IMG/VR virus record: IMGVR_UViG_3300045996_001447
Location: 1-58,770 of that record
Direction: 5' to 3' (one strand)
Source of the DNA: a virus
Length of the DNA stretch: 58,770 nt
Made by a program: the position numbers and the translations under genes. This document shows, one piece after another, positions 393-58,770 of this stretch. The notes beneath the pieces were generated by a model. The model was not told the DNA's origin, ran no database searches, and worked only from the letters and a program-made list of their open reading frames with translations. Position 1 is the stretch's first letter. Each line of letters opens with the position of its first letter.

Positions 393-769
393 CAGACTCG
401 GACCCCCGCGGCCTTCAGGGCCGCGATGATGTCGCCACGGTCGGCGTCGTCGGCCACGCTCACGTTCTTGCGCTGGGCGTAGGCGCGCCACGCCGCAGTG
501 CCCGAGCCCGGCCCGCGCTGGGGCGGAGGCTCGTCGGCTCCCGCGGCCGCCTGGGCCTCGGGGGTCGTCTGCACCTCGGTGCGGGTCGGACGCTGCTGCT
601 CCCGAGCCGGGGCGGACGGTGCGCTGGGGAGCCCCGCACCGTCCGCCCAGGCGGCCGGGTTGCTGATCTTGGCCACAGCCCAGTCCGGGACGTCGTCGTG
701 CGGGCCGAACACGTGCGGAACACCTCGTCCGTCCCGCACGTGAACGTCCCGCGCCAGGCGCTTGGCCAT
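392..769 (-). CDS. head-associated protein with C-terminal SAP/HeH-like domain
   Basis: A 125-residue protein between the major capsid gene and the head-tail adaptor, overlapping both by short stop-start junctions. The N-terminal 40 residues are compact. A Pro/Ala/Gln-rich linker follows (about 45-85). The last 40 residues (GTAAWRAYAQRKNVSVADDADRG and onward, ending LKAAGVRV) look like the small helix-extended-loop-helix fold seen in Lsr2 C-termini and SAP/HeH modules, which suggests nucleic-acid or protein contact. Similar small proteins occupy this slot in many actinophages. Exact function unknown. Confidence 0.7.
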   Translation of the reverse strand: MAKRLARDVHVRDGRGVPHVFGPHDDVPDWAVAKISNPAAWADGAGLPSAPSAPAREQQRPTRTEVQTTPEAQAAAGADEPPPQRGPGSGTAAWRAYAQRKNVSVADDADRGDIIAALKAAGVRV

Positions 770-1830
770 CAGGCGGCCGGGGCCAGGACGTCGGCCACGA
801 GCGACAGGTTCGCGTCCACCGCGACCGGCAGGGCGATGCCCGCACCGATCGTGTCGACCCGGACCGGCGTCTTGCGCTCAACGAAGCTGGCCACGACGAT
901 CCCGGCCTCCTCACCGGCCTCCACGCCGTAGTCCGGAAGCTGGGCCTCGATCGTGGTTCCCCACAACGTGGCGCCGAGCTGGCCGCCCTCGGTGGTGGAG
1001 CTACCGCCCGGAGCGGGCAGCAGGGCCACCTTGTGGTCCGGCACGATCCGGCGCGTGGCCCGGGTGCCCGAGGCGTCCGCGAACGTGGCGTTGCCCGAGT
1101 AGGTGTAGATCGGGGGCAGCGTCTCGTCGGACAGCAGGTCGTCCAGGTCCGACCGGCGGACCCGGGCGGTGGAGTCGTCCCCGCGGATGGCGCCGAGGAT
1201 CTGCGGGTTACGCAGCCACACGCGCACCACGCGCTCCGAGGTGAGGATCGCACCCGGGCGGGTGCCGTTGAGCGCCTCGTACGCGTCGCACCACGAGATC
1301 AGCTCGTCCAGGACCTCGGCGGCCTCGTCGTCGTGCAGCGCGGCCGGGGTCGGCTCCATGGACGCGTCCCGGTCGAAGTCGACCGTCAGGGACAGGCCGT
1401 TCTCGGCCAGGTCCACCTTGGCCTCGAAGATGGCCTGGGCGCGCGCCACCTCCATCCGCCGACCCATCGTGTTCGCGATGCGCGCGGCGTCGCGCAGCAG
1501 CAGGTTGCGCACCTCCTCCTCCGCGTTGCGGAGGATGAGCTGGTCGTACTCGTTGAGCGTCATCTGCCGGCCGAGCGGGGGCAGCGAGCCCTCGATCGCC
1601 CGGATGCCCTCACGCCGGCCGAACGTCGGCTCAGAGTTGTACGCCCGGTAATCGGCCACGTCCAGCAGGCCCACGGGCCCGGACTCCAGCCGGTAACGCA
1701 GATCGTTGATCTGCTGGTTCGGCAGCCACCGCGAGAGGGTGAACTGGTTCTCGTTCAGCGTGTCCAGCTCGGCTCGCCCGTACCCGGTCAGCTCGGCCGG
1801 GGTGACGAACTCGTCGTAGAGATCAGCCAT
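769..1830 (-). CDS. major capsid protein (lambda gpE-like)
   Basis: 353 residues, the usual size for lambda-E-type HK97-fold capsid proteins. The C-terminus carries the family hallmark of alternating beta segments ending in TPVRVDTIGAGIALPV and DANLSLVADVLAP. The middle has a long helical part (roughly 90-150) and a nucleotide-rich-phage-like TSERVVRVW segment. The start ATG has a strong GGAGG ribosome site about 8 bases upstream. Its neighbours are the decoration and scaffold genes upstream and connector genes downstream, the standard head order. It forms the icosahedral shell around the scaffold. Confidence 0.93.
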   Translation of the reverse strand: MADLYDEFVTPAELTGYGRAELDTLNENQFTLSRWLPNQQINDLRYRLESGPVGLLDVADYRAYNSEPTFGRREGIRAIEGSLPPLGRQMTLNEYDQLILRNAEEEVRNLLLRDAARIANTMGRRMEVARAQAIFEAKVDLAENGLSLTVDFDRDASMEPTPAALHDDEAAEVLDELISWCDAYEALNGTRPGAILTSERVVRVWLRNPQILGAIRGDDSTARVRRSDLDDLLSDETLPPIYTYSGNATFADASGTRATRRIVPDHKVALLPAPGGSSTTEGGQLGATLWGTTIEAQLPDYGVEAGEEAGIVVASFVERKTPVRVDTIGAGIALPVAVDANLSLVADVLAPAA

Positions 1831-3133: not shown

Positions 3134-3997
3134 CTACGCAGCCCGCAGGACCGGGCCCAGTTCTCCGTGGTCGGTGACCCGCACCCGGACCTTGGCCAGG
3201 TCCGTGGCGCGGTTGGATCCGGCCACCTCGTAGATCCGGAACAGGTCGTCGGTGTTCAGCTCGCGGCCGGGATCGTGCTCGCGGGTCACCGGCATCACGT
3301 CGCACGCGCAGTGCGTGTGCAGCGGCATCAGTTCGGAGGTGCGGTAGAGCCGGTCCGCGGCCACCAGGCAGAGCCCGCACGGCCCGCCGGAGGTCATCTC
3401 GGGGCGGACCAGGCGCCGGTAGCCGATCGCCTCGTCGGTGCCGTCCAGCACCTCGTACGCGGCCGAGCGCATCGCCATGCCCAGGTCGTTGGACACCTGG
3501 CGCTCCAACCGGTCCAGCCCGGCGGCCTTGGCCTCGGGCTCCGGCGCGCCGATCGACCGGGCATAGCGCCACTGCTCGAACGCCCGGTAGTAGACGCTCT
3601 CCGGGTCGGTGACCTTGCGCAGCGTGGCGCCCAGCGCGATCGTGCCGGCCACCGCGGCGGTGACCGCGATGTGGCGCGAGGTGATCTGGGACAGCACCGC
3701 GCGCAGGTAGGCCGCGGTGGAGTTGGCCGTGGCCGACTGTCCACCCTGGATCAGCCGGAACGTGGCCCGGGCGGCCGCGGCGATGGCCTCGGGGTCACGC
3801 GGGTCGGCCACCGCGGCGTACTCACCGGTAACCAGGCGCAACGTGGTGGACGCGATCCGGAGCCGCGCCTGGGCCTGGCGCTCGGCCAGACTCAGCGCGG
3901 CCCCGGCCGCACCGCCGGGGAGCAGGGTCAGCGCGGGAGCGGCCTGGTAGGCCGCCTGGGCGGCCAGGGCCTCGGCCAGCGGGGCCGGGCTGGTCAC
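3134..3997 (-). CDS. MuF-like minor capsid protein
   Basis: 287 residues, overlapping the portal stop by 4 bases, with a GTG start in the coupled position. The N-terminal two thirds are helical and Ala-rich. The C-terminal third has a Cys/His cluster (GGPCGLCLVAADRLYR, then LMPLHTHCACDVMPV) that is characteristic of the MuF-type head morphogenesis proteins which sit next to the portal and are packaged with DNA. Some relatives are annotated as capsid maturation proteases, but no clear protease triad is visible here. Confidence 0.82.
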   Translation of the reverse strand: MTSPAPLAEALAAQAAYQAAPALTLLPGGAAGAALSLAERQAQARLRIASTTLRLVTGEYAAVADPRDPEAIAAAARATFRLIQGGQSATANSTAAYLRAVLSQITSRHIAVTAAVAGTIALGATLRKVTDPESVYYRAFEQWRYARSIGAPEPEAKAAGLDRLERQVSNDLGMAMRSAAYEVLDGTDEAIGYRRLVRPEMTSGGPCGLCLVAADRLYRTSELMPLHTHCACDVMPVTREHDPGRELNTDDLFRIYEVAGSNRATDLAKVRVRVTDHGELGPVLRAA

Positions 3998-5637
3998 GAG
4001 CCCGACGAGCCCGACGAACTACCGGAACCGCCCGAACTGTCCGAGCCCCCGGACGAACCGGAGCCCGACGAGGTCGACGACCCGCCGGACGAGGTCCCCG
4101 GAGACCCCGCCGAGGCAGCGGAGCCCCCAGCGGCCCCCGTGCCGGTCGTGGCCGGGGTCTCCGGGGCGAATATCAGGTCGTCCGCGCGCTGCGCGCGCAG
4201 CCGCGGCAGGTCGTCCGGCTCGTACTGCAGCACGTCCACCATCCGGGACTCCCACGGCAGGCCCGCGGTGACCGCCTGGGCGGCCGCGGCGTAGCGCTCG
4301 GAGAGGCTGAACCGCTCGATGGGCGACCACAGGGTGGTGATCGTGAGCGGGTCGTCCCCCTCGGTGCCGGGTAGGTAGCCGAACGCCAGCGAGAACGCCT
4401 CGGCGAACCCGGACGAGCACCGGTTTCGCCGGTCCTTGGCCCGAAAGATCAGCCCTTCCTTGGCCGAGCTGGCGCCCTCGGCGGAGGCGTTGGCCGCGTC
4501 CGGCATGAAGTGCTGGACCGGCATCCGCAGCACCGCGGCCAGGTCCCGGACGTCGTCGCGCACGCTGGTGAGTAGCGGCCCGAGGTCCACCTGGCCGGAC
4601 TCCCACAGTTCCGCGGTAGCCGGCAGCAGCCACAGCGCCGAGGGGTCGTTGGTGAAGATGTCGGAGTAGTCGATCGGGTTGCCGTCCTTGTCCTTGGTCG
4701 GCACACCCTTGATCGCCCGCTGGCGGAACGCCTGCAGCGTGGCGATCACGATCCGCTGTAGCAGCATGTGGTTGACCCGGTCCAGGTGGTCGGTGTGGTT
4801 CTCGAACTCACCTTCCGAGTCGTGGTTGGCGAACCGGGCCACCGCGCAGCGGTCACCGATGGAGCCGGACAGGTCCCGGTCCACGGTGATCTCCCACTGG
4901 CGCGGGTCGAACCGGAACCGGCGCCGGGTCACGTCCAGGGACGAGGTTCCGCGCACGCTGTCCCCGGTGCGCTCGAACTTCACCGCGCGCCCGGGCGGGT
5001 AGAGCCACCCGACATCGCGCTGGGCAATCGGGTCGTAGTACAGCTTGAGCCCCATGATCACTCGCTGGGGCATCTCCGGGTCCTGCTCGGTGATCACCCA
5101 GCGCGGGTCCTCGGCGGTGATGATCGGCAGGGCGCCGCGGACCGGGACGCCGGCCGCGTCGGTGCGCGGCGGTCCGGTGATGGTGTAGCTCTCCCCCATC
5201 ACCAGCATTTTCTCGATCACCTCGGACGCCTGGACGTCCATGGAGTTGGCCGCCCAGATCCGGCGGGCCAGCGCGTTGGTGGTGTCGTTCGGGACCGGCG
5301 CCAGCGCCGAGCCGACCTGGCGCGCGGAGCCGGTGGCCACGGCCACCGAGTCGATCGTGGCCTGGTCGGTCTCCACCCGGCACCCGATCGGCTCCAGCCG
5401 CTCGGCCACGGTGCGGGTGACCAGCTCGGCCAGGTTCATCCGGGCCTTCTGCTGGAACGCTTTCCAGACCCGTTCCCGGTTGCGCGACGCGGCCGGCGAG
5501 CCCAGCTCGGGCAAAGGCGGGTTGCCCTTGTGCCGGTCCCAGAGCGGCTGGATGCGCTTGCGGCGCTCCATGAGCGCGTCGGCCAGGCGCTGGATCCACC
5601 AGCCGTCCGACTCGGGGACGTCCACGTCGTTGATCAC
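3994..5637 (-). CDS. portal protein
   Basis: 547 residues, SPP1-gp6-like. The N-terminus (GWWIQRLADALMERRKRIQPLW) and the body with NLAELVTRTVAERLEPIG and the membrane-fold-like wing and stem regions fit dodecameric portals. The last 50 residues are an unusual Ser/Gly-rich tail (many GSSG and SGGS units), longer than most portals carry. GTG start. It is the DNA entry gate of the capsid and the docking site of the terminase. It follows the large terminase with an HNH gene and an opposite-strand gene in between, so the terL-portal link has been broken by insertions. Confidence 0.93.
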   Translation of the reverse strand: MINDVDVPESDGWWIQRLADALMERRKRIQPLWDRHKGNPPLPELGSPAASRNRERVWKAFQQKARMNLAELVTRTVAERLEPIGCRVETDQATIDSVAVATGSARQVGSALAPVPNDTTNALARRIWAANSMDVQASEVIEKMLVMGESYTITGPPRTDAAGVPVRGALPIITAEDPRWVITEQDPEMPQRVIMGLKLYYDPIAQRDVGWLYPPGRAVKFERTGDSVRGTSSLDVTRRRFRFDPRQWEITVDRDLSGSIGDRCAVARFANHDSEGEFENHTDHLDRVNHMLLQRIVIATLQAFRQRAIKGVPTKDKDGNPIDYSDIFTNDPSALWLLPATAELWESGQVDLGPLLTSVRDDVRDLAAVLRMPVQHFMPDAANASAEGASSAKEGLIFRAKDRRNRCSSGFAEAFSLAFGYLPGTEGDDPLTITTLWSPIERFSLSERYAAAAQAVTAGLPWESRMVDVLQYEPDDLPRLRAQRADDLIFAPETPATTGTGAAGGSAASAGSPGTSSGGSSTSSGSGSSGGSDSSGGSGSSSGSSGS

Positions 5638-5976: not shown

Positions 5977-6588
5977 TCAGTAGACCCGGATCCGCCACTC
6001 CATGACCGTCAGCGCGCCCTTGCGGGTGTTGCACGTCGGGCAAGCGGGGGCCAGGTTTCCGATCGCGTGTCGTCCACCCCGAATGATCGGGATGATGTGG
6101 TCCCAGTGCAACGACGTGCCCGGGACGACCGGCACGGCGCAGTACGCGCACCGGCCGCGGTGACGATCTAGTAGCCGGGCCAGGTCCCGCGCGGTGACGC
6201 GTCGTCGCTCCGCACCACGCCGGACAGCTTTCTGGACGCGCAGCAACTCGGCCACGATGTCCCGGTTCGACCGGCGCCAGTCCGCCACGGCGCGACGGCG
6301 GCGCTCGGGGTCCTGGGCGTACCGGGCTCGTCGAAGCGCGTTCCGCCGGACCTTGTCCCGCTCGTGCCGAACGCGGTCGTAGGCGCGATGCCGCTCCGGG
6401 TCGGTCGCTCGGGCCGTCCGACGACGAGCGTTGACATCATCCCGACGACGGGCGTGCGACCGGCGATCCTGCTCCGGGTCCCGGCGTCGGTAGTTCTGGT
6501 TCCAGCACCGATGAGAGCAGAACCGAGCGTCCGACCGGCGGCCGGTAAACGAGGCATCGCACTCCGCACAGCGGAGATCGTGTTCCAC
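5977..6588 (-). CDS. HNH homing-type endonuclease
   Basis: 203 residues from a GTG 4 bases after the terminase stop. An in-frame ATG at 6654 lies inside the terminase gene and is less likely. The N-terminus has a zinc site (LRCAECDASF, then ARFCSHRCWNQ), the middle is very Arg-rich, and the C-terminal HNH core reads CAYCAVPVVPGTSLHWDHIIPIIRGG followed by NLAPACPTCNTRKG. It cuts DNA and probably spreads itself. It splits the usual terminase-portal pair. Its last codons and those of the terminase are near-identical (both end IRVY), because a 13-base direct repeat flanks the gene. Confidence 0.88.
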   Translation of the reverse strand: MEHDLRCAECDASFTGRRSDARFCSHRCWNQNYRRRDPEQDRRSHARRRDDVNARRRTARATDPERHRAYDRVRHERDKVRRNALRRARYAQDPERRRRAVADWRRSNRDIVAELLRVQKAVRRGAERRRVTARDLARLLDRHRGRCAYCAVPVVPGTSLHWDHIIPIIRGGRHAIGNLAPACPTCNTRKGALTVMEWRIRVY

Positions 6589-6607
6589 CTCATTAGTATA
6601 CCCGGAT
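5979..6607. repeat. direct repeats flanking the HNH gene
   Basis: AGTAGACCCGGAT at 5979-5991 and AGTATACCCGGAT at 6595-6607 agree at 12 of 13 positions. One covers the stop of the HNH gene, the other the stop of the large terminase. They bracket the endonuclease almost exactly, as expected for insertion by recombination or homing at the terminase 3' end. Confidence 0.55.
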
Positions 6608-8275
6608 TGGTACGAAAACTTGATCCTCGGTGATCCCCGCGGCCACCGCGTCACAGCGGGCCTCGTAGGCCAGGACCGCGGCCATGCACGCGTCGATCTT
6701 GTCCGGGCTCTGCGGGAACGGCTTGCCGATCAGGTCCCCCGAGCGGGTGGGCCGGACTCGGGCGTTGCCGATGTGACGGGTGAGCGTCGGCTGGTCGGCG
6801 TGGCTCAGCGCAACGTCCTGGGCGGCCTCGTGGAACCGCTCCAGCGCGGTCACCATGCGCCGGGAGTGCCCACCACCGGTCCACCACTCCATCGGGCGTG
6901 AGCCGCTGGCCTTGAGCCGCATCGCGTCGCCCCACTCGGCCTGCCAGCGGTCAAGGTAGTCCTGCCAGTGGGCCGGGTCGGCGTAGACCGCGGCCACGTC
7001 GTAGGTCTCCATCGCGCGGGTGAACGCCGCGTCCACCGCGACCCGGTCCACCTGCCAGTCCTTGGCGTACGGCGGGCGCTCCCAGCAGCCGATCAGCTCC
7101 AGGTACCCGTCGGAGATGCGGGCGGCCACCAGGGCCGTGGCGTCGTCGCGGATCGACCCGTCGAACCCGAGGGTGACCAGGTCCCCGTCGGCCAGCGGCG
7201 CCGGCTCGTCCTCACCCCGGTCGCGGCGGGCCTTGCGTCCGCACGCGTGCCAGGTCTGCAGGTCCATCCAGGCGTCCTCGCCAGAGATGATGTGGTTCAG
7301 GTAGAACCGGGCGGCCATCTCCGGCGGGGTGCCGGGGTCCAGGTACTCGACGACGATCCGTTCGATGTCCACCCAGGGCGCGCCCGAGTAGGCCCGGCGC
7401 AAGCCACGACGCAGCGACTCGGGGTCCCGGGGATCGGTGTCGGCCGGGGCTTCCAGGGAGTCGTAGAGCAGGCTCCGGCGCACCGTGCGGCCCTCGGTCT
7501 GGGCGACGTAAGCGCCGTGCGTGGCCTCGGCGACCGAGTCCTGGCCGGGGACGAACGCGTTGCACGTCTCGATCGACCGGCCGCCGATCTTGCCGAGGTT
7601 ACGGCGGATGACCTTGGCAAGATCGTGGCCGCCGTTGGACGCCAGCCACCACTCGGTCTCGTCCAGCACACAGAACGTCGGCCGGGCGCCCTCCGCCGCG
7701 TGCGGGGACGCCGTGATGATCTCCAGGCGGCCCCCGCCGGGGGTGTAGACCCGCGTCTTGCCGGTGTCCAGGCCGTACCGCTCCCGCACCCGCGACCCGG
7801 GCGGCACGAGCGCGGTCACCATGGACATGGTGTTGGTGGTCTGGGCCTCGGCGGTGGCCGCGATCTGCACCCAGGGCATCGGCACCGACTTGCCCACCAG
7901 GAACTCGAACCCGGCGGAGTCGTCGGTGGAGTCGAATCCGGCGAACCGGACCGGCCCCACCAACTCGCACAGTGACAACGCGGCTACATAGGGTGACTTG
8001 CCAGTCCCTTTCGAGCGGCGGATCGCCGCGCGGTTGTGCAGGAACCGGCCGTCGTCGTCGATCGCGTAGTACCAGAGCAGGAAGTGGATCTGGGCGTCGG
8101 TGAACCGCCAGGGCTCCCCGGCGTGGTCCCCGTCGGGCTGGACCAGCCAGGTGTGTGCCCACAGGATCACGCCCCAGCCCAGCGTCCGCATCGGGTCGGG
8201 CTCGTGCTCGGGCAGCGTGTCCGAGAGCGGGAACACCTCGGCCGGCGCCTCGGGAGCGTCCGGGGTGAGCGTCAC
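6593..8275 (-). CDS. terL: terminase large subunit (structural operon copy)
   Basis: 560 residues with ATPase and nuclease domains. Walker A is RRSKGTGKSPYVA near residue 85, Walker B FCVLDETEWW near 200, and a coupling segment TCNAFVP follows. The RNase-H-like nuclease has its first acid in LVTLGFDGSIRDDATA (near 375), a second in VAAVYADPAHW and a third in PDKIDACMAAVLAYEA near the end. It packages DNA into the prohead through the portal. The start overlaps the stop of the small gene upstream (ATGA). It is in its normal place after the small terminase. A second, different large terminase lies at 41.2 kb. Confidence 0.95.
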   Translation of the reverse strand: MTLTPDAPEAPAEVFPLSDTLPEHEPDPMRTLGWGVILWAHTWLVQPDGDHAGEPWRFTDAQIHFLLWYYAIDDDGRFLHNRAAIRRSKGTGKSPYVAALSLCELVGPVRFAGFDSTDDSAGFEFLVGKSVPMPWVQIAATAEAQTTNTMSMVTALVPPGSRVRERYGLDTGKTRVYTPGGGRLEIITASPHAAEGARPTFCVLDETEWWLASNGGHDLAKVIRRNLGKIGGRSIETCNAFVPGQDSVAEATHGAYVAQTEGRTVRRSLLYDSLEAPADTDPRDPESLRRGLRRAYSGAPWVDIERIVVEYLDPGTPPEMAARFYLNHIISGEDAWMDLQTWHACGRKARRDRGEDEPAPLADGDLVTLGFDGSIRDDATALVAARISDGYLELIGCWERPPYAKDWQVDRVAVDAAFTRAMETYDVAAVYADPAHWQDYLDRWQAEWGDAMRLKASGSRPMEWWTGGGHSRRMVTALERFHEAAQDVALSHADQPTLTRHIGNARVRPTRSGDLIGKPFPQSPDKIDACMAAVLAYEARCDAVAAGITEDQVFVPIRVY

Positions 8276-8675: not shown

Positions 8676-8896
8676 GTGACGCCCTCCGGCAGGGCGATCC
8701 AGGCCACCTGGTGGGCGTTGATCACGTCACGGCGGGAGCCGAACAACTGGACCGCCGGGTCCCCGCCGTGGCCACGCCAGGCGCTGCGGATGGCGTCCAC
8801 GATGGCCTGGGCATTGGAGACTAGACAGGCCTGGAGCCGGTGCTGGTGTCCGCCGGCCATGTGGATCACTAGGGTGACCCGGCGCTCGTCGGTCAT
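8672..8896 (-). CDS. hypothetical protein in terminase operon
   Basis: 74 residues, ATG overlapping the small-terminase stop by one base pair of the ATGA type. Sequence VTLVIHMAGGHQHRLQACLV then AQAIVDAIRSAW, RDVINAHQVAWIAL suggests a small alternating beta/alpha fold. Not recognised. Position next to the small terminase suggests a packaging or early head role, but this is inference only. Confidence 0.65.
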   Translation of the reverse strand: MTDERRVTLVIHMAGGHQHRLQACLVSNAQAIVDAIRSAWRGHGGDPAVQLFGSRRDVINAHQVAWIALPEGVT

Positions 8897-9324
8897 CAGG
8901 CACCCCGCGACTTGCGTCGTTGCGCGGACAGGCTGGCCACCGCGCCGTCCCGGGCGCTGTCGCCCGCGGCGTCCGGGCGGGCCAGCTCCATCTTGGCCCG
9001 GCGCCGATCCCCGGCCGTGGCCAGCAGGGACGAGCATCCGGACAGGAACGCCGACAGGGCGTTACCGCCCATCGGGCCCTTCCACGCCAGGTGGCGGGAC
9101 AGGTCCTCGGCCAGAACCCAGGCCGTCTCGGCGTCGCTCTGCTGGTAGTCGATCGCCTGGGCGCTCTGCTGGAGGCTCAGGTACCACGCCTCGGCGGCCT
9201 CGTGCCAGTCCCCGGGCTCACGCCAGGTGACCGCCATCGGGGTCACCTCGTCGAACGGGTCGTTCTGGGCGCCGTGCCCGTGTCGCATGTCCGGCCGCTT
9301 GCCGACCGGCCCGCGTTCTCCCAT
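8896..9324 (-). CDS. terS: terminase small subunit
   Basis: 142 residues from the ATG of MGERGPVGKRPD, the standard opening of actinophage small terminases. An in-frame start 21 bases upstream is possible. A helical body follows (WHEAAEAWYLSLQQSAQAIDYQQSD, WVLAEDLSRHLAWKG, ALSAFLSGCSSLLATAGDRRRAKMEL) and a basic C-terminal tail. It recognises the packaging site and loads the large subunit, which lies three small genes downstream. An HNH gene and an AT-rich repeat array lie just upstream, as in many cos phages. Confidence 0.83.
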   Translation of the reverse strand: MGERGPVGKRPDMRHGHGAQNDPFDEVTPMAVTWREPGDWHEAAEAWYLSLQQSAQAIDYQQSDAETAWVLAEDLSRHLAWKGPMGGNALSAFLSGCSSLLATAGDRRRAKMELARPDAAGDSARDGAVASLSAQRRKSRGA

Positions 9325-16152: not shown

Positions 16153-16192
16153 ACTGACCTCGCATGGCGTCATTGCTCGGTGTCGTGTACGG

Positions 16193-24422: not shown

Positions 24423-24431
24423 CGACCATCA

Positions 24432-38295: not shown

Positions 38296-38335
38296 TGATC
38301 TTCATTAATGCAGATCAGGGGCACGTGCGGGAAGT
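38296..38335 (+). other. short AT-rich gap before second terminase block
   Basis: 40 bases including TGATCTTCATTAATGCAGATCA, locally AT-rich with the palindrome CATTAATG. Could carry a promoter, but no pair of -35 and -10 boxes is convincing. Confidence 0.35.
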
Positions 38336-38893
38336 GTGTGGATCATCATGGACACGGAGGGTGAACAGCCGTCACGCGCTGATCTGATCGCCCGTGCCTG
38401 GGAACTGTCCACCGGCAACGCTCCCGAGTGCCACGACCGGCCGATGAGCACTCGCCGCGTGGCCCGAGAGATGGACATCCCGCACTCCACGGCGCGGGAC
38501 TACATCAAGGAAGCGCACGAGGTCCAGGGATGGATCGACCTGCTGGACCGGGCCGAGGGGCGACAGGCGCTCGCGTTGCGGACCATGCGGGTGCTCGATC
38601 GGCTGGACAAGGTGATGGAGGACGACGAGCGGCTGGTGGAGGTGGCTCCGGTGTGGTTCAAGGGAGCCGGCCAGCTCGCCCAGTTGCTCGGGCTCAACGC
38701 CCCGGTGCGGGTGCAGAACGAGACGGTACGGCCGAACGTGGAGCCGAGCCCCGACGTGGCCGAGGCGGTCCGCGCGGCCCAGCGACGAGCGGCCCGGGAA
38801 CGCGCCGAGATCCGCGGGGAGTCCCCGCTGGTGATCGCGCCGGGGCAGGACGGTACCGAGAACGACGACGACGACGGAGACGGAGAGACGTGA
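38336..38893 (+). CDS. possible second terminase small subunit (HTH protein)
   Basis: 185 residues from GTG. The ATG 12 bases on is an alternative. STRRVAREMDIPHSTARDYI is a helix-turn-helix like those at the N-terminus of small terminases. A helical core follows (LALRTMRVLDRLDKVMEDDE, APVWFKGAGQLAQLLGLNAP), then a charged tail ending in a run of Asp. HTH, oligomer core and tail is the small-terminase plan, and a second large terminase lies 2.3 kb downstream in the same operon. A plain DNA-binding regulator is the alternative. No similarity to the 9 kb small terminase is visible. Confidence 0.55.
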   Translation: MWIIMDTEGEQPSRADLIARAWELSTGNAPECHDRPMSTRRVAREMDIPHSTARDYIKEAHEVQGWIDLLDRAEGRQALALRTMRVLDRLDKVMEDDERLVEVAPVWFKGAGQLAQLLGLNAPVRVQNETVRPNVEPSPDVAEAVRAAQRRAARERAEIRGESPLVIAPGQDGTENDDDDGDGET

Positions 38894-39384
38894 TGCCGCA
38901 CTGGAACTACCGAGTTCTGCGCCGGGAGGTGAATGGGGAAACGGAACTGGCCGTGCACGAGGTCTATTGGGACGGAGACCGGATCACCGGGTGGACCGAG
39001 ACCCCGGCAACGGCCACGGCGGAGACCCTTCCGGAGCTACGCGACGTCCTGGCCAAGATGGCGACCGCCCCGGAGTTCGACGTGATCGAGATCAGCACCG
39101 ACGACGAGGAGTGGAACATGAGCTGGGGACACTGGAGCGGAGACTACGACCCGCCGGCCGCGAACCGGCCGCCGAGCGGGCTGCGCCACGCGCTGGCGAT
39201 GGCCTGGCGCGACGCCCGGCCCGAGCTGGCCCAGGCCCTGCAGCGTCTCGCGCTGCGCCTGGACCCGGGGATGCCCTACGTCCGGGACACCGGGTACGGG
39301 ATGGAGGTCTGGGCGAACGGGGTCAAGCTGCTGCGCCTCGGGCGCGGCTCGGTAGCGGGGCGCCAGTACGGGGGCGAGGCATGA
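38893..39384 (+). CDS. hypothetical protein
   Basis: 163 residues, start shares TGATG with the previous stop. HWNYRVLRREVNGETELAVH and EVYWDGDRITGWTETP form a beta-rich N-terminal module of a type seen in many bacterial and phage small proteins of unknown role. A helical and acidic middle (LPELRDVLAKMATAPEFDVI) and a basic C-terminus follow. Confidence 0.68.
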   Translation: MPHWNYRVLRREVNGETELAVHEVYWDGDRITGWTETPATATAETLPELRDVLAKMATAPEFDVIEISTDDEEWNMSWGHWSGDYDPPAANRPPSGLRHALAMAWRDARPELAQALQRLALRLDPGMPYVRDTGYGMEVWANGVKLLRLGRGSVAGRQYGGEA

Positions 39385-39476
39385 ACTGCCCAGGGTGCGG
39401 CCGGACGCTGTCGAATCCGAGGCGCTGCATCGCGTGCGGCTGGGGATTCTTCCGTCGGCTGGTGATGACGCGATGA
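39381..39476 (+). CDS. minimal zinc-ribbon protein
   Basis: 31 residues, ATG overlapping the previous stop. NCPGCGRTLSNPRRCIACGW gives two C-x2-C pairs at ideal spacing for one zinc, with a basic end (FFRRLVMTR). Among the smallest zinc-ribbon genes. Ends ATGA with the next gene. Confidence 0.62.
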   Translation: MNCPGCGRTLSNPRRCIACGWGFFRRLVMTR

Positions 39477-39958
39477 CCGGCCCGCGCGCCCGGGACCCGC
39501 AGCCCGGGGACCCGGACTACGGCGAGCACCTCGCCCGGCGGATCGCGGGGGCGATCGCCTGGCAGGGGCGGGTTCCCGCGAACCAGGCCCTGGGCGGGAT
39601 CGACTTGGCCCGCGCGATCGTCGCGTTACCCGAGGTGCAGGCGTTGCTCGCCAGTGAGCTGGATCGGTCCTCCACGGGGCTGCTGTCGTCGGTGGACGAT
39701 GTCGCCCGCGTCTGCCAGGCCGCCGGGCTGCGAGAGGGCGGCGATCAGGAGTGGGGCGCTGGTCCGGTCGCGGTGTATACCGGGCTGCGGCGCGGGCGGA
39801 CGCTCCGCTCGGTCGTTGTCGAGCGACTCGAACACGTCGACACGCATCAGAGCGGCGTCCGGGCCGTGTGGTCGGCACGGTTCTACCCCGGCAGCCCCGC
39901 TCACCTGTTGTGGGCGGCGATCCAGGCCGCGCACGTCGGGCAGCGGGACGGCGCATGA
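39473..39958 (+). CDS. hypothetical protein
   Basis: 161 residues, ATG overlapping the previous stop. Helical segments (EHLARRIAGAIAWQGRVPAN, DLARAIVALPEVQALLASEL, VDDVARVCQAAGL) and a beta segment VVERLEHVDTHQSGVRAVWS. A long helical N-terminal half and beta C-terminal half. Not recognised. Confidence 0.66.
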   Translation: MTGPRARDPQPGDPDYGEHLARRIAGAIAWQGRVPANQALGGIDLARAIVALPEVQALLASELDRSSTGLLSSVDDVARVCQAAGLREGGDQEWGAGPVAVYTGLRRGRTLRSVVVERLEHVDTHQSGVRAVWSARFYPGSPAHLLWAAIQAAHVGQRDGA

Positions 39959-40110
39959 TCCGCGGGCTGTTCGGCCGGCTCGTGCCGCCTCGGGACCCGG
40001 ACGAGGCGCCGGTCCCGGTGCGGGAGGTGCAGCGGCTGGAGGACGAGGTCCGGGCGCTGCGTGAGCGGGTGCGGGTGCTGGAGGAACGAGTGGACGAGGT
40101 GGGCTGGTGA
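39955..40110 (+). CDS. small coiled-coil protein
   Basis: 51 residues, ATG overlapping the previous stop. A basic start, then QRLEDEVRALRERVRVLEER in clear heptads. Oligomeric helix likely. Ends GTGA. Confidence 0.6.
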   Translation: MIRGLFGRLVPPRDPDEAPVPVREVQRLEDEVRALRERVRVLEERVDEVGW

Positions 40111-40304
40111 TTGACGTGACGATGACGTTCCGGGTGTCGCGCCCGGACGGGACCGCGGACACCGTGACCGTCCAGCGCCGGATCGACCGGCCGGGGGACC
40201 CGGCGGGAACGGTGGTCCCGGGGCGACTCCACGCCGACATCGCGGCCATGGGTGTGCGCCTGGCCCACGACGTGAACCGGATCTACGCCCCGAGGGAGAC
40301 CTGA
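40107..40304 (+). CDS. hypothetical protein
   Basis: 65 residues, GTG overlapping the previous stop. A beta hairpin (VTMTFRVSRPDGTADTVTVQ) and a helix (LHADIAAMGVRLAHDVNRIY). No motif. Stop and next start share TGATG. Confidence 0.6.
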   Translation: MIDVTMTFRVSRPDGTADTVTVQRRIDRPGDPAGTVVPGRLHADIAAMGVRLAHDVNRIYAPRET

Positions 40305-40552
40305 TGACCGAGTACGAGCGCGAGGACGGGCCGCGGGCCACCAAGTCGATCGATCTCACCGCACTGCCCCCGCCGGTGGAGTTCATCGTGCGCGCTCGGG
40401 TGCCGGCGTGGCAGGTCACCGGCGGCACGATGTACGCCGACGAGATCCCGCTGTTCGAGTGCTCGCGGTGCCCGGGCGTGGTGATCTGGGGTGACCGGCT
40501 CTACCCGCACCGGGAGTGGCACCTGGTCCAGGATCGGAGGCCGCCGACGTGA
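40304..40552 (+). CDS. hypothetical protein with single Cys pair
   Basis: 82 residues. PPPVEFIVRARVPAWQVTGG is beta-rich, and LFECSRCPGVVIWGDRLYPH has a Cys pair and His like half a zinc site. The last 24 bases belong to a 27-base direct repeat that recurs 101 bases downstream. Confidence 0.62.
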   Translation: MTEYEREDGPRATKSIDLTALPPPVEFIVRARVPAWQVTGGTMYADEIPLFECSRCPGVVIWGDRLYPHREWHLVQDRRPPT

Positions 40553-40656
40553 TCGGGTTCATGGAGTACATGACTGTTGCTTTGTCGAGCGGTGGACTCG
40601 CCTACGTCGTGGGGTATCGCTCCGGTCGGCAGGATCGGAGGCCGCCGACGTGATCG
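40529..40656 (+). repeat. 27-base direct repeat spanning two stop-start junctions
   Basis: CAGGATCGGAGGCCGCCGAC and the following GTGATCG occur perfectly at 40529-40555 and 40630-40656, period 101. Each copy holds a GGAGG site, the last codons of one gene (QDRRPPT), and the GTGA start of the next. Confidence 0.8.
40549..40653 (+). CDS. very small protein created between direct repeats
   Basis: 34 residues, GTG inside the first repeat, stop inside the second. FMEYMTVALSSGGLAYVVGY is weakly hydrophobic and may be a membrane peptide. The end QDRRPPT copies the end of the gene before. It probably arose by tandem duplication of the junction or as a short remnant. Confidence 0.48.
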   Translation: MIGFMEYMTVALSSGGLAYVVGYRSGRQDRRPPT

Positions 40657-40985
40657 AGATGGGCCTGTTCGTCCTGCTGAACGCCGGGCTCTCGATGTTC
40701 GCCGGAGGGATCGGGGCCTTGGTGGCGTTCGCGATCGACCGGAGGATGGACGACCGACCGACACAGCCTCCCGCCGAGCCCCAGCCGCTGGAGGCGGTGT
40801 GCTCGTGCGGGCACGGGTACGGCAAGCACCGTCACGACGGGTGCGGCGGGGTCACCGTGGTGCGCCGGGAGTGGACCCAGGACAGTTCGCTGAACACGTG
40901 GTTCGAGGAACAGATCCTGGAGTGCGGGTGCATCACCTACGACGGTCCGGACCTGGAGACGGTCCGGATGCTGCGGGGAGGCTGA
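40650..40985 (+). CDS. membrane-anchored zinc-knuckle protein
   Basis: 111 residues, GTG in the second repeat, with GGAGG 9 bases upstream. EMGLFVLLNAGLSMFAGGIG then ALVAFAIDRR is a membrane helix. AVCSCGHGYGKHRHDGCGG is a Cys/His knuckle, and ILECGCITYDG a second Cys pair. Such knuckles with the CxCGH pattern are frequent in actinophage proteins. Confidence 0.66.
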   Translation: MIEMGLFVLLNAGLSMFAGGIGALVAFAIDRRMDDRPTQPPAEPQPLEAVCSCGHGYGKHRHDGCGGVTVVRREWTQDSSLNTWFEEQILECGCITYDGPDLETVRMLRGG

Positions 40986-40986
40986 C

Positions 40987-41238
40987 GTGACCGAGCGACT
41001 GCACAACAAGGACTACACGGTGGCCGAGGCGGTCCAGGTGGTTCACACGGTGCGCGACCATCCGGCGCTCTCCGGGTTCCTCACGCGGCGAGACCTGTTG
41101 CGCGCGGCCGGCGTGCTGGCCGACTACGCGGCCGCCACCGGAAACGGGCCGATCAACGTGGCGCCCGGCCGCGCGGTGATCACGATGCCAGACGGCACCT
41201 CGTACGAGATCCCGCTGGTGGGCCGGGTGGCCCGATGA
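40987..41238 (+). CDS. hypothetical protein
   Basis: 83 residues, GTG one base after the previous stop. DYTVAEAVQVVHTVRDHPAL and FLTRRDLLRAAGVLADYAAA are helices, and the end is a beta hairpin (RAVITMPDGTSYEIPLVG). Immediately upstream of the second large terminase and overlapping it by ATGA, so perhaps a partner of it (inference). Confidence 0.62.
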   Translation: MTERLHNKDYTVAEAVQVVHTVRDHPALSGFLTRRDLLRAAGVLADYAAATGNGPINVAPGRAVITMPDGTSYEIPLVGRVAR

Positions 41239-42713
41239 CCACGATCGAGTTCCCGCCGGGCGTGGACGCGGCGCGGGTGCTGACGCCGCTCAACTCGGCG
41301 GCCTGGGAGCACTCTCCGGCCTACCGGCGCGCGGTCACGGTGAACGACCCGGTGGCGTTTGCGATCACCTACCTCCCCCACCACCTGGCCAGCACGCTGA
41401 CGGGTGGGGTGATGTCGTTCGCGCCGATGCACATCGCGATGGCCAAGCTGGGCCGGTCGTGGCTGGATGACCGGCCGCACCGGGACGCGGTGATCGCGCC
41501 GCGCTCGATCGGGAAATCCACCTGGGCGTTCCTGGTGCTCCCGCTCTGGGCGATGGCGCACGGGCACCGGTCCTACGTGGTGGCGTTCGCCGACGCCTCG
41601 GGGCAGGCCGAGGGGCACCTGGCGAACTTGCGGAACGAGATCGCACGCAACGAGCTGCTGGCCCAGGACTTCCCCGAGCTGACGCCGGCCGGGCGCAACA
41701 ACGCCAAGGACCTGGTGACCGAGGGCGGGGCCGCGTTCTCGGCGCGCGGGATGGACTCGCGCACGCTGGGGGCCAAGTCCGGGGCCGACCGCCCGGACCT
41801 GCTGATCGGGGACGACCTGGAGCCGATGAGCCGCTACAGCGCCCAGGTGCGTGACGAGCGCCTCCACGTCCTGCTGGACGGGGTGTTGCCGATGGGCGAC
41901 CGGGCCAACGTGCTGCTGGTCGGCACCGTGGTGCGCTACGGGTCGATCATGCACACGCTGGCCCAGTACGCACGCGGCCGGGAGACCGGGGAGGCGTGGC
42001 CGGTGTCCGAGGGGATCGCGGCGCACTACTTCCCGCCGATCCTGGGCACCGGGGCCCGGGAGCGCTCGTGCTGGCCGGCGCGCTGGCCGCTGTCCGAGCT
42101 GCGTGCGCTGCGTGATGCGGGCGGGTCCAAGTGGTGGCTGAACTTCCTCAACGACCCGCCGCGCCCGGGCGAGTCCGGCGCCGGCTGGACGCCGGAGATG
42201 TTCACCTACGGCGGGGCCGACGTGGACCAGTGGGTCGTGGTGGTGGACCTGGCGCCGACGTCCAAGGCCACGAGCGACCAGACCGCGGTGGCGGTGCTCG
42301 GGGTGGACGTGTCGGGCCGGCACCTGGTGGTGGCCGAGTGCCGCGGGGTGCGCGCCCAGCCCGGGGAGATCCGGGACCTGGTGCACCGGCTGGCCAAGCG
42401 CTACCACGCGCGGGAGGTGCACGCCGAGGTGAACCAGGGCCACGACACCTGGCGCCGGGTGTTCCAGCCGATGCCTCAGCTCCCCGGCTCCGGAAAGCCG
42501 GTCCGGCTGGTCCCGTTCCACACCTCGTCCAACAAGCGGGAGCGGATCCTGGACCTGGTGGACCTCTACGGCCGCGGCGGGGTGATCCACCTGGATCGGC
42601 TCGGGGAGCTGGAGCGCCAGGCCCTGGCGTGGCCGGATGTGCGCCACGACGACCTGGTGGACGTGATCGCGCTCGGCGCCGAGCGCCTGGCCGGTCAGCT
42701 CGTGCGGCTGTAA
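41235..42713 (+). CDS. second terminase large subunit (accessory region)
   Basis: 492 residues, ATG overlapping the previous stop. HRDAVIAPRSIGKSTWAFLV is Walker A near residue 88, DLLIGDDLEP Walker B near 190, and LLVGTVVRYGSIMH the coupling motif. The nuclease domain has WVVVVDLAPTSKATSDQTAV (first acid), ARE-VHAEVNQGHDTW (second) and DVRHDDLVDVIALGAERL (third). Both catalytic centres are intact. It differs in length, Walker A context and motif wording from the terminase at 6.6 kb, so it is not a recent duplicate. It is expressed with the accessory block, away from portal and capsid. Role unknown: alternative packaging, DNA cutting, or an acquired module. Confidence 0.88.
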   Translation: MTTIEFPPGVDAARVLTPLNSAAWEHSPAYRRAVTVNDPVAFAITYLPHHLASTLTGGVMSFAPMHIAMAKLGRSWLDDRPHRDAVIAPRSIGKSTWAFLVLPLWAMAHGHRSYVVAFADASGQAEGHLANLRNEIARNELLAQDFPELTPAGRNNAKDLVTEGGAAFSARGMDSRTLGAKSGADRPDLLIGDDLEPMSRYSAQVRDERLHVLLDGVLPMGDRANVLLVGTVVRYGSIMHTLAQYARGRETGEAWPVSEGIAAHYFPPILGTGARERSCWPARWPLSELRALRDAGGSKWWLNFLNDPPRPGESGAGWTPEMFTYGGADVDQWVVVVDLAPTSKATSDQTAVAVLGVDVSGRHLVVAECRGVRAQPGEIRDLVHRLAKRYHAREVHAEVNQGHDTWRRVFQPMPQLPGSGKPVRLVPFHTSSNKRERILDLVDLYGRGGVIHLDRLGELERQALAWPDVRHDDLVDVIALGAERLAGQLVRL

Positions 42714-54061: not shown

Positions 54062-54934
54062 TCACTGGTCAACCCAGGCGGGGCGGTAGGTGGTCACGGA
54101 ACCGGAGCCGGCGTCCACCTCGGACGTCGGGTGATAGCGCACGACGCTCTGACCGGGCGGGATCTGCCACCAGGTGGACACCGTGTAGTCCAGGAAGTGA
54201 GCCCGGGTGGCGGCCGGGTCGGACAGGTAGTAGGCCGTGTGGTTGGCCGTGTCGATCTCGACGTACTCACCGAGGCCGATCACCAGGTCCGTGGTGAACG
54301 CCAGCGTTTCGCCGGTGGTGTCGTTGGTGTAGCGCGGCCCGCGGCACGGGCCGTAGAGCCGGGCCACCTGGTCGGCCGGCTCGGTGCCCGGGTTGGTGTG
54401 CAACACCCGGCCGCGCGGCTGGGCCGCGGGGAACGAGATCGGGAACTCGATCGGGAACGTGATCCCGGCCGGGTCCTCGGTCTCGGCGTTCAGCTCGAAC
54501 GTGACCGGGTCGGTGGCCTGCCAGGCGCCGGTCGGGCAGGCCCACTGGAACTGGAGCGGGCGCCGGATGTGCGCCATGTGGTCGATGTCGCCCGGGGTGA
54601 AGTTGTCCCGGCGCAGTAGCAGGAACCGTTCCCCGTCGTAGATGTCGGGGTCGGTGATCCCGAGCATCGGGCGCAGCGCCGGAGACAGGTAGGTGGTGAT
54701 CTCCCGCAGCAGGCTCGGCGACCAGACGGTGGCCACCATCTCGACCACCCGCCCGCTGTAGTACCGGGTGGTGTCGTACTGGCCGTGGGCTCCGGTGCGG
54801 TCCTCGGCCACCGTGCGTACGGTCGGCGACCCCGGGTTGATCTTGTGGACCAGGATGTCGTCGCGGGTGTTGTCCCGTCCACCCAGGACCAGTTCCCGGG
54901 CACCGTCGAACAGCCGGATTTTGGTGACGGTCAC
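54062..54934 (-). CDS. distal tail-like minor tail protein
   Basis: 290 residues, GTG overlapping the tape-measure stop. The N-terminal barrel (IRLFDGARELVLGGRDNTRD, YDTTRYYSGRVVEMVATVWS) and the galectin-like second part (LQFQWACPTGAWQATDPVTF, TFPIEFPISFPAAQPRGRVL) are the pattern of distal tail (Dit) proteins. It caps the tube under the tape measure and links the hub. Confidence 0.83.
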   Translation of the reverse strand: MTVTKIRLFDGARELVLGGRDNTRDDILVHKINPGSPTVRTVAEDRTGAHGQYDTTRYYSGRVVEMVATVWSPSLLREITTYLSPALRPMLGITDPDIYDGERFLLLRRDNFTPGDIDHMAHIRRPLQFQWACPTGAWQATDPVTFELNAETEDPAGITFPIEFPISFPAAQPRGRVLHTNPGTEPADQVARLYGPCRGPRYTNDTTGETLAFTTDLVIGLGEYVEIDTANHTAYYLSDPAATRAHFLDYTVSTWWQIPPGQSVVRYHPTSEVDAGSGSVTTYRPAWVDQ

Positions 54935-57900
54935 AGCGTCGTGCTCCGTTCCCGCCAGTCGAGCTGGTTGTAGAGGCTGTCCACGTCCATCGGGTCGTTC
55001 ACGTCGCCGTGCACGTGCAGATGCACCTCACGCCCGCCGGGGACCCCGGCGCCGGCCATGAGCGCCACCTGGCGGGGATCCAGGTTGCGAGTTGGGACCA
55101 GCCGGCCGTCGTCGATCATCTTCCGGTAGGCGGACAGGGTGTCGTAGTCCCCGGTCTGCTCGGGGTCCAGGACGCGCTCGTCCCGGATCACGTCCTTGAA
55201 CATGATTCCCTTGCCCCGCGCCACCCCGCCGTTGTCGAACGGGTCGGCCGGGCGCACGAACCCACCACCGGCGTAGTAGTTGCGCGCGTTGTGGAACGCC
55301 AGAGCCGCGGTCGGCGTGCCGTAGCGGCCGCGGATGTAGTCCAGGCCCCAGGCAGCCTGCCCGGCCGGTGTCGGCTCCACCGGGCCATGTGCAGACGTCA
55401 TCTTCTGGAAGAGGCCTCTGGCATTTGATGTTGGGTTCGCTGCGTTCGGGTTCCAGCTCGACTCTTTTTGGATCAGCCGGACGATGGCGTCCCATTCGGC
55501 GCCCTCGGACCAGCCGAACTGGGCGGCCACCTGGCGGACCTGGTCCACCACCGGTCCGGAGATCCCGGAGACGTCGATCCCCGAGCCCGAGCTGGTGTCC
55601 TTGCTGAACAGGAAGTCCAGGATCTTGTCCCGCCACATCGTGGCCATGTCCACCGGGACCTTGCGCCACAACGGCGGGGGCTCGCCGAGCATCGCCCGCA
55701 GGCCGTCCAGCGCGGGGTTGGTCAGTTCCTCGAAGATGCCGCGGATGAACGAGGCCAGGCCACCGCCGCTCCCGTTGCCACCGGAAACGAACTGGCCGCC
55801 GACGACCGGGAGGTGCCACTGCTGGGTGAAGTACCCGTTATCGGCACCCCACCGGCTCGGGAACGAGAACGGCGTCCCATTAGGACCGTGCTGCTCGACG
55901 TTCTGGCCGGCCAGAGTGCCGGCCATGTGGTCTGCCGGCTTGTTGCCGACCGCCCAGGCGCTGTTGAGCCCCGGCGCGAACCCGCCCCACGGCATGGACG
56001 CCGTGGTGCCGATCCGGCCCGAGTCCGGCGGCCGGCCGGACAGGATGTGGGTGACCGCCGAGACCATGGACGAGCAGTCCATGCCGGCGCGCGGGTTGGT
56101 CCCTCCACCGTAGACATACGGGGCGCCGCGGGCCGGGCCGGACAGCCACCGCTTGGCCTCGTCGATCCGGACTTCCACCGGGCCACCGGCAGCGCGGCGC
56201 GGGATGTTGCGGTCGAAACCGGACTTCCCGTGGAACGCCTTGGGCGCGACCCGGCGCAGCCCCCCGGCGGCCTGCAGCGCCTCACCGTTGCCGGCGTTGA
56301 GCGCCTGCAGGAACGGTGCCGTTCGCTTGGCGATCGACTCCCGAACCACGAACTCCCGGTTCGACACCCAGGAGGTCGGGATCTTGCGCCGGGCGTCGAT
56401 CCCCAGGATGGAGTCCGAGGTGCCGGTCCCCGGGCCGCGCAGCATCCCGCCACCCGCACGCTTGGTGCCGCCGTGCCGGCCGATCGGGCCACCCTCGGCG
56501 TTCTCCGGGATGGGCCGCAGTGGTCCGATCGGGTCGACGCCGGGCAACAGGTCGGCCACCTTGTTCCAGGCCGGGACGATGCCCTCGTTCCACACCGTGT
56601 TGATCATGAAGTTGATTGGTTTCGCGAGGAAACCACGGATGCGGGCCCAGATCTCACCGATCCAGTTGGTGACCTGGTCGAACTTCTCGCCCACCCACTG
56701 CAGGCCGCCGACGATCGCGTCCCAGCAGGGCTTGAGCACGTTCAGCCAGACCCAGTTGATCCCGGCCATCAGCAGCGCCCAGCGCTGCTCGATCCCGGCC
56801 AGGATCGGCAGCCAGACGTTGTTGTAGAGCCAGGTCAGCCCCGCGATGATCGCGTCCCAGCAGGGCTTGAGCACGTTCAGCCAGACCCAGTTCAGCGCCG
56901 CCATCAGCAGCGCCCAGCGCTGCTCGATCCCGGCCAAGATCGGGAGCCAGACGTTCACATAAAGCCAGGTCAGCGCCATGATGATCGCGTCCCAGCAGGG
57001 CTTGAGCACGTTCACCCAGACCCAGTTGATCCCGATCATCAGCAGTGACCAGGCCGCGCCGATGGCCGCAAAGATCGGCTGGAACACGTTGACCCAGAGC
57101 CAGGTCAGCGCCGCGGTGATCAAGTTGAAAGCGACGATGAACGGCGCGACGAGCACGACGAAGATCACCGCGCCGAGGAACTGCAGCGCCTGCCAGATGA
57201 AGTTCAGCACCGGCGAAATCACGGTGTTCCAGGCCCACGAGATCGCCGCGGAGATCGCATTCCAGGCCGGCACGATCGCGGTCTGCCAGAGCCAGATCGC
57301 GGCCGCGCCGATCCACTGGAAGATCGGGACCAGGAAGTTGAGCGCCGGCACCACCACGTTGGTGATCACCCAGGCGATGGCCTGGCTCAGCACGCCGGCC
57401 AGGCCCACCAGGATCGGGATCAGAAACTGGATGGCCGGGATGAGCACGTTCGTGATCGCCCAGCTCAGCACCGAGGTGTAGAGGTTAGCCAGGAAAACGA
57501 TCACCGGGATGAGCACGTTCTGGATGATCATCACCAGGGGCGGCAGCACCGCCCCGATGAGCTGACCGAGCGCGCCGATCACTGGCCCGAGCACGGCCAC
57601 CAGGATCTGGCCGAACGCCTGGCCCAGCAGGGCGATCACCGGGACCAGCGCGCCGACCAGTTGCATCAGCGGCGGGAGGATCGCGCCGGCCAGTTGCATC
57701 AGGACGCCGGCCACCAAGTTGATCACCGGGACGAGCGCGGCCGCGAGCTGGCCGACGAGCTGGCCGACGATCCCGCCGAGCATCCCGAGCACCTGGCCCA
57801 GCACGGTGAAGATCGGCATCACCGAGCTGACGATCTGGCCGATCAGCGTCATCAGGACGCCCAGCAAGCCGTTGATCGCGTTCCGGAACGGCTCGGAGGA

Positions 57901-58770
57901 CTGGTACAGGATCCCGAACGCCACGATCAGGATCCCGATCGGGCCCAGCGCCATCAGGATGGCCCGGCCGATGAACATGATCACGTTGCGGAACAGGGCC
58001 ATGTAGCCGCCCGCGGCGCCGGCCGCCAGCCCGAGCGCGGAGAACGGGCGCAGCAGCGCGAACACGATCTGGGCCAGCTTGGACCCCTGCAGCCCGACCG
58101 CAGCGAACACCGCGCCCAGGGCCCCGATGAGCATGGACCGCAGCGCCCAGGTGGCGATCAGGCCGAGCACGAACCCGAGCGGGCGCAGGGCGCCCAGCAG
58201 CGTGATGACCGCGCCGACCACGCCCATCACGAGCGCCGGGTTCTGCGACATCCAGGTGGCCAGCATGACCAAGAACGGGGTGGCCATCTGGATCGCCCCG
58301 ACCAGGCCGGTGGCGATGCTCTGAGCGAACTGGACCAGGAACGGCGTCAGCGCCACCAGGATCGGCGTGAGCGCCTGCAGGGCCGCGCCGAGGACCTGGG
58401 ACAGCGCCACGCCCATCGCGTTGAGAATCGGCGACAGGGCCAGCAGCAACGGCCCGAGGAACCCGAGCGCGCCGATGAACGCCTGGGCGGCCGGCACCAT
58501 CCCGATCAGCGCCTGGGCCAGCGGGCCGGCCAGTCCGGCGATCAGAACGGAGAGCATGTCGAGCACGCCGAGCCCGACGCTGGCGAACGGCAGGAACGCC
58601 CGGATCAGCTCGGCGCCGGCCCAGGCCAGGGTCATCAGGGACTGGAACAGCCGCGGGATCACCGTGCCCGCGGCGTTGCCCAGCATGGCAAAGAACCCGG
58701 CCCAGTACGGGTTGGCCAGCGTGGTGAGCACGAACTGGAGCCCGGCGCCCATGCCGGCCGCGAGCTGACC
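54931..58770 (-). CDS. tape measure protein, partial (N-terminus outside window)
   Basis: At least 1,279 residues, open at the right edge, where 6 codons precede the first internal Met with no stop. Long hydrophobic helices and Leu/Ile/Val/Gly-rich stretches over the first 560 residues. Three tandem 45-residue Trp-rich repeats follow (about 565-700). Then a cell-wall peptidase-like domain PYVYGGGTNPRAGMDCSSMV near 885 (NlpC/P60 type, Cys) and an SLT lysozyme-like domain RLIQKESSWNPNAANPTSNA near 1096. It sets tail length, forms a channel, and its C-terminal enzymes open the wall at entry. Confidence 0.94.
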   Translation of the reverse strand, partial: GQLAAGMGAGLQFVLTTLANPYWAGFFAMLGNAAGTVIPRLFQSLMTLAWAGAELIRAFLPFASVGLGVLDMLSVLIAGLAGPLAQALIGMVPAAQAFIGALGFLGPLLLALSPILNAMGVALSQVLGAALQALTPILVALTPFLVQFAQSIATGLVGAIQMATPFLVMLATWMSQNPALVMGVVGAVITLLGALRPLGFVLGLIATWALRSMLIGALGAVFAAVGLQGSKLAQIVFALLRPFSALGLAAGAAGGYMALFRNVIMFIGRAILMALGPIGILIVAFGILYQSSEPFRNAINGLLGVLMTLIGQIVSSVMPIFTVLGQVLGMLGGIVGQLVGQLAAALVPVINLVAGVLMQLAGAILPPLMQLVGALVPVIALLGQAFGQILVAVLGPVIGALGQLIGAVLPPLVMIIQNVLIPVIVFLANLYTSVLSWAITNVLIPAIQFLIPILVGLAGVLSQAIAWVITNVVVPALNFLVPIFQWIGAAAIWLWQTAIVPAWNAISAAISWAWNTVISPVLNFIWQALQFLGAVIFVVLVAPFIVAFNLITAALTWLWVNVFQPIFAAIGAAWSLLMIGINWVWVNVLKPCWDAIIMALTWLYVNVWLPILAGIEQRWALLMAALNWVWLNVLKPCWDAIIAGLTWLYNNVWLPILAGIEQRWALLMAGINWVWLNVLKPCWDAIVGGLQWVGEKFDQVTNWIGEIWARIRGFLAKPINFMINTVWNEGIVPAWNKVADLLPGVDPIGPLRPIPENAEGGPIGRHGGTKRAGGGMLRGPGTGTSDSILGIDARRKIPTSWVSNREFVVRESIAKRTAPFLQALNAGNGEALQAAGGLRRVAPKAFHGKSGFDRNIPRRAAGGPVEVRIDEAKRWLSGPARGAPYVYGGGTNPRAGMDCSSMVSAVTHILSGRPPDSGRIGTTASMPWGGFAPGLNSAWAVGNKPADHMAGTLAGQNVEQHGPNGTPFSFPSRWGADNGYFTQQWHLPVVGGQFVSGGNGSGGGLASFIRGIFEELTNPALDGLRAMLGEPPPLWRKVPVDMATMWRDKILDFLFSKDTSSGSGIDVSGISGPVVDQVRQVAAQFGWSEGAEWDAIVRLIQKESSWNPNAANPTSNARGLFQKMTSAHGPVEPTPAGQAAWGLDYIRGRYGTPTAALAFHNARNYYAGGGFVRPADPFDNGGVARGKGIMFKDVIRDERVLDPEQTGDYDTLSAYRKMIDDGRLVPTRNLDPRQVALMAGAGVPGGREVHLHVHGDVNDPMDVDSLYNQLDWRERSTTL
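56713..57060 (-). repeat. 135-base tandem repeats in the tape measure gene
   Basis: Three units begin near 56713, 56847 and 56982 on the plus strand, each starting GATCGCGTCCCAGCAGGG. Each codes 45 residues with NWVWLNVLKPCWDAI and WLPILAGIEQRWALLM. The third, farther copy is more diverged. Spacing is constant at 135 bases. Tape repeats change tail length in steps. Confidence 0.82.

Follow-up and report, generated by a model that had tools for sequence, protein, structure and literature searches.

Tailed phages are regarded as having a single packaging motor, paired with a single portal. The question raised by this locus is therefore why a phage genome encodes, far from its structural genes, what appears to be a second and complete terminase large subunit. 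The window analysed here, 58,770 bases long (71% GC), is a linear IMG/VR virus record in which no terminal repeats were found, and its packaging, head and tail features are listed in Table 1. An initial annotation, made from the sequence, had described the protein at 41.2 kb (TerL2) as a complete large terminase, not a recent copy of the one at 6.6 kb (TerL1), and had proposed several roles for it.

Gene layout and the structural packaging module

The left part of the minus strand carries the polymerase, TerS1, TerL1, HNH, portal, protease and capsid genes, and its right part the tape measure, tail and lysis genes. The plus strand, from 16.7 to 43.8 kb, encodes a helicase, a methyltransferase, an HNH protein, an exonuclease, RusA and many small genes. 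TerL2 belongs to this strand, opposite to the structural genes, as initially described. The contig is broken between the genes of the major capsid protein (MCP) and the tape measure protein; since these are separated by about 4.4 kb in Gordonia phage Angelique, some 4-6 kb of this interval is probably absent. Searches of viral contigs with the polymerase and TerL2 retrieved no near relatives of the window, nor was the two-terminase arrangement found in any other genome.

Table 1. Coordinates of packaging, head and tail genes and of the genes between TerS2 and TerL2 in the window.
Feature	Coordinates	Strand	Remarks
Major capsid protein (MCP)	769..1830	-	
Head maturation protease	3134..3997	-	
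Portal protein	3994..5637	-	PHROG 104
HNH endonuclease between TerL1 and portal	5977..6288	-	PHROG 2118, E 1.9e-20
TerL1, terminase large subunit	6593..8275	-	PHROG 9, E 4e-73; intact
TerS1	8896..9324	-	PHROG 226; small-terminase position and family of TerL1-type phages
TerS2, predicted small terminase of TerL2 kind	38336..38893	+	HTH, long helices, 26-aa acidic C-terminal extension
Small gene between TerS2 and TerL2	38890-39384	+	Coding model
Small gene between TerS2 and TerL2	39473-39958	+	Coding model
Small gene between TerS2 and TerL2	39955-40110	+	Coding model
Small gene between TerS2 and TerL2	40107-40304	+	Coding model
Small gene between TerS2 and TerL2	40304-40552	+	Coding model
Small gene between TerS2 and TerL2	40650-40985	+	Coding model
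Small gene between TerS2 and TerL2	40987-41238	+	Coding model
TerL2, second terminase large subunit	41235..42713	+	PHROG 38 type; ATPase and nuclease residues intact, C-terminal tail missing
Tape measure protein	54931..58752	-	Open at contig end, probably cut

The minus-strand genes reproduce the TerS-TerL-portal-protease order of the HK97-like actinophage module (PHROG 9) of Reedo, Tweety19 and Mysterium, to whose large terminases TerL1 is 43-49% identical. TerS, TerL1, HNH and portal lie in one operon, the motifs of TerL1 are intact, as the initial annotation had noted, and its C-terminal tail is of normal length (35 residues vs 34-44 in its relatives). Homologues of TerS1 are found just upstream of TerL1-type genes, and its position matches that of the annotated TerS in Mysterium and Tweety19. 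The PHROG 104 protein is the sole portal found in the window, which was also searched by tblastn with seven portals. The best reading of these data is that TerL1 is the motor that packages the virion DNA.

Other features of the record were noted in passing. An AT-rich island just upstream of TerS1 (9806-9964; 39% GC) contains eight tandem ACTAATTAGTATCAGC-like units with 16/18-nt spacing, with outlying copies at 10076-10115, and is a candidate origin, packaging or partition site. Primase and DNA polymerase are fused in one protein of 1477 aa (11740-16173, minus strand); in the closest Streptomyces phages they are separate adjacent genes, and a related fusion is present in a TerL2-type phage contig (G036). 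The early region holds a single tRNA gene, tRNA-Val (gac), at 24356-24423 (plus strand), and the product of 30005-30631 (plus strand) gave a sub-threshold match (E 0.0045) to the hairpin domain of Acb2/Tad1, a family of anti-defence nucleotide sponges.

Assignment of TerL2 and its small subunit

The TerL2 ORF starts with ATG and encodes 492 aa, of which residues 35-488 match PHROG 38 'terminase large subunit' (E 1.9e-63). The profile search, singled out beforehand as a possible source of refutation, thus places the 41.2-kb protein inside the terminases. In an alignment with 30 relatives, the Walker A lysine (K94, in APRSIGKST), the Walker B acids (D193, D194 and E196, in IGDDLE), the coupling motif (G230, T231) and the nuclease residues (D338, D348, E398 and D473) were all invariant. 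The AlphaFold2 model (mean pLDDT 90.8) has the two-domain fold of an ATPase and an RNase H-like nuclease, and the best PDB folds retrieved by Foldseek were large terminases, namely PhiV-1 TerL (8dgc, E 6.5e-21), T4 gp17 and Sf6 gp2. Judged by its family profile, residues and modelled fold, TerL2 is a full-length large terminase that is predicted to be enzymatically intact, in agreement with the initial annotation. Its intact catalytic residues and a GC3 of 0.97 argue against old debris.

TerL1 and TerL2, located 33 kb apart, are full-length enzymes of unrelated families. No sequence similarity was detectable between them (BLASTP E 9.5; profile-profile probability 0.2%), which rules out that TerL2 is a recent duplicate of TerL1 and confirms the initial impression that neither is a recent copy of the other.

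The HTH protein at 38.3 kb had been described as being of small-terminase plan. This was borne out by a TerS profile that was built from ORFs preceding TerL2-type genes in other phages, with no window sequence included, and that reaches 83 such ORFs: it recovers the 38.3-kb protein (as ORF 38309-38890) at E 1.1e-10, the next window ORF scoring 0.03. Aligned with its relatives, the protein displays the HTH, long helices and an LLGLDAPxK-like motif; its AlphaFold2 model has a pLDDT of 83.8, and Foldseek found no significant PDB match for the monomer. The gap to TerL2 is 2.3 kb, and TerS-TerL gaps in relatives reach 4.5 kb. Based on profile and spacing, this protein is assigned as the small terminase of TerL2 (TerS2), encoded in the same gene block. 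One contig therefore carries two unrelated complete TerS/TerL pairs. Profile searches matched none of the seven intervening genes to a named family. No 14-mer is common to the TerS1 and TerS2 regions that could represent a shared packaging sequence, and no TerS2 packaging site was found.

Two other assignments were discarded. A 164-aa ORF at 40491, whose true start is probably 40650, was considered as the TerS of TerL2 by analogy with the gene order of Wyvern and OscarSo, and shows no similarity. The function 'RNase E', carried by PHROG 645, was rejected for the 38.3-kb protein, as a PHROG 645 member (L095, 9469-9999) lies directly upstream of TerL as TerS. The PHROG 645 members seen here, this one and the window protein at 38336-38893, adjoin large terminases upstream or match the TerS profile, and the name 'RNase E' looks wrong.

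The coexistence of both types is unusual. Among the sampled records, a PHROG 9 terminase was found in 0 of 46 that carry a TerL2-type enzyme, and a TerL2-type terminase in 0 of 55 HK97-like TerL1-type records, in contrast to the window; both queries detected their own types in positive controls, although many of these records are fragments and the zeros are not absolute. The rule of one motor per phage, invoked in the initial annotation, thus held in the sampled records. The literature searched yielded no report of a phage with two full-length unrelated large terminases. Pairs of ORFs annotated as large terminase also occur in PDS1, in the Xanthomonas phages XaC1 and XbC2 and in the S. warneri prophage vB_G30_01; these are adjacent or in tandem, unlike the distant, full-length TerL1 and TerL2, and those of PDS1 correspond to the two domains of a single enzyme (PMC10773633). 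For Kuttervirus, what looked like a second TerS was attributed to misannotation by the authors of that study (PMC9409062).

Portal and C-terminal tail in the TerL2 family

The PHROG 38 enzymes of the Streptomyces phages KimJongPhill, Zuko and Dryad and the Microbacterium phages OscarSo and Wyvern are 34-36% identical to TerL2 over 91-96% of the length and share all its catalytic residues, with TerS upstream, sometimes after intervening genes. In these five phages it is the sole TerL found and a portal follows, whereas in the window it is a second TerL with neither portal nor tail. The same holds in a wider sample: a portal lies directly or closely downstream of the TerL2-type gene in all 116 testable relatives and is absent beside TerL2. 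The count comprises 110 of 118 loci, the satellites MiniFlayer and Mulchroom, and four loci (L074, L076, L094 and L095) that were considered as portal-less relatives until all were seen to carry a PHROG 776 portal; two loci, the window itself and one cut by a contig end, stand outside it. Since these relatives were found through their similarity to TerL2-type sequences, very diverged stand-alone copies could be missed. The neighbouring portals belong to two families, the KimJongPhill type and PHROG 776.

The second difference from other PHROG 38 members is the lack of the conserved C-terminal tail. TerL2 has 21 residues between the nuclease DD and its stop codon, compared with 29-45 in 102 complete relatives, 89 of which have an aromatic residue among the last five, in a terminal motif (SYV, for example). 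Tails of 31-35 residues were measured in six TerL2-type copies from host genomes, some of which had also supplied earlier loci. TerL2 is ended by an early TAA, past which the frame stays open for 11 more codons, giving about the usual tail length; this fits a recent truncation, and no conserved motif was seen in these codons. TerS2 is extended C-terminally by an acidic stretch of 26 residues (net charge -8), relative to 2-11 residues in 32 relatives, so that both subunits are altered at their C-termini. In its tree, TerL2 also forms the sole long terminal branch (2.15, against a median of 0.41; the TerL1 end branch is 1.16, median 0.37), which may be due in part to missing close relatives.

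The C-terminal region of lambda terminase (gpA) binds the prohead. In T3 terminase this region has been reported to be important for prohead binding (Morita 1995, as cited in PMC2366019). By analogy with these enzymes, the PHROG 38 tail probably docks the enzyme at the portal. TerL2 does not have the appearance of a working second capsid-filling motor, because both portal and C-terminal tail are missing. That it nevertheless docks on the PHROG 104 portal and, directed by TerS2, packages other elements or a different form of DNA is very unlikely: although its ATPase and nuclease are complete, a TerS of the same kind is present and the occurrence of TerL2-type enzymes with two portal families suggests that partners can change, the cognate portal is absent, the tail is missing while that of TerL1 is normal, and the two TerL types were together in 0 of 101 sampled records.

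An integrated capsid-forming satellite was also considered. MiniFlayer and Mulchroom carry, on an accessory element, a TerL of the same family (33-34% identity to TerL2) with its own TerS; however, they keep the C-terminal tail and the portal, scaffold and capsid genes, which the TerL2 pair lacks. Capsid-forming PICIs likewise encode portal, scaffold and capsid proteins in addition to TerS/TerL (PMC10690885). All of these are satellites, whereas TerS2/TerL2 belongs to a phage equipped with a terminase of its own, and no portal or capsid gene was recognised near 38-44 kb, which eliminated a satellite of either type.

The arrangement could in principle be a chimera, assembled from two phages of the TerL1 and TerL2 types, as the record is single, metagenomic, linear and incomplete and has no close relative in the collections searched. 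However, the window has a single complement of head and tail genes and of the polymerase, and a second capsid gene is absent. Since TerL2 always has a portal next to it in relatives, a single join cannot leave it facing tail genes, and a chimera would require two joins, flanking about 4.4 kb (38-43 kb). Moreover, the GC and tetranucleotide profile shows no break from 36 to 45 kb (composition being a weak test), the TerS2-TerL2 spacing is as in relatives, and no repeats near the pair are long enough for mis-joining. A misassembly, which the initial annotation had raised against its own interpretation, is thus unlikely, and a low probability is assigned to it.

Origin and possible use of the TerS2/TerL2 pair

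Based on the available evidence, the explanation that we favour, with slightly better than even confidence, is that TerS2/TerL2 is an unrelated terminase pair orphaned from its own capsid module, the genome being packaged by the TerS1-TerL1-HNH-portal set. Orphaning may have occurred by capture of the pair or by replacement of its structural genes. The pair keeps a complete DNA-recognition subunit, ATPase and nuclease but has no cognate portal beside it and no conserved tail; lacking these, TerL2 would be unable to load a prohead and presumably no longer fills capsids. The pair resembles a packaging enzyme that has become detached from packaging. Among the roles proposed in the initial annotation, that of a captured module is plausible, whereas the packaging of another DNA form is weakened by the missing portal and tail. 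The cutting or engaging of DNA, or competition with satellites or related phages, may be among its uses.

A more doubtful proposal is that the pair is a non-functional relic, left in another transcription unit when the structural module was recently exchanged, with tail loss as the first damage. The missing portal and tail, the long TerL2 branch and the early TAA with its 11 open codons are consistent with this, and so is a primase-polymerase that the window has in common with two TerL2-type phages at about 38-40%, which suggests a possible common history of the replication and TerL2 modules. Phage genomes, however, usually lose dead 1.5-kb genes quickly. The TerL2 catalytic residues are all intact, with a GC3 still at the value given above, and TerS2 is intact too, with an added acidic tail, which argues against decay.

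If the orphaned pair is instead kept for use, interference fits best, because recognition and cleavage are present and docking is absent. It can be hypothesized, tentatively, that TerS2 targets phages, prophages or satellites of TerL2 type by binding their packaging sites and that TerL2 cuts or occupies their DNA portal-free, acting as a dominant-negative poison of a competitor's packaging. Somewhat less probable still is the more specific proposal of a phage-borne packaging-interference weapon, in which TerL2, freed from portals by the loss of its tail, would cut or block the TerL2-type DNA of competitors. The TerL2 family is present in about 2% of sampled Streptomycetaceae genomes and is also carried by Streptomyces satellites.

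If this interpretation is true, one phage holds two unrelated complete terminase pairs, one of them without its capsid partner and docking tail, which would mean that a terminase can outlive its capsid. The TerS2/TerL2 pair of the window would then provide a natural test for non-packaging functions of terminases, for example against satellites or related prophages.
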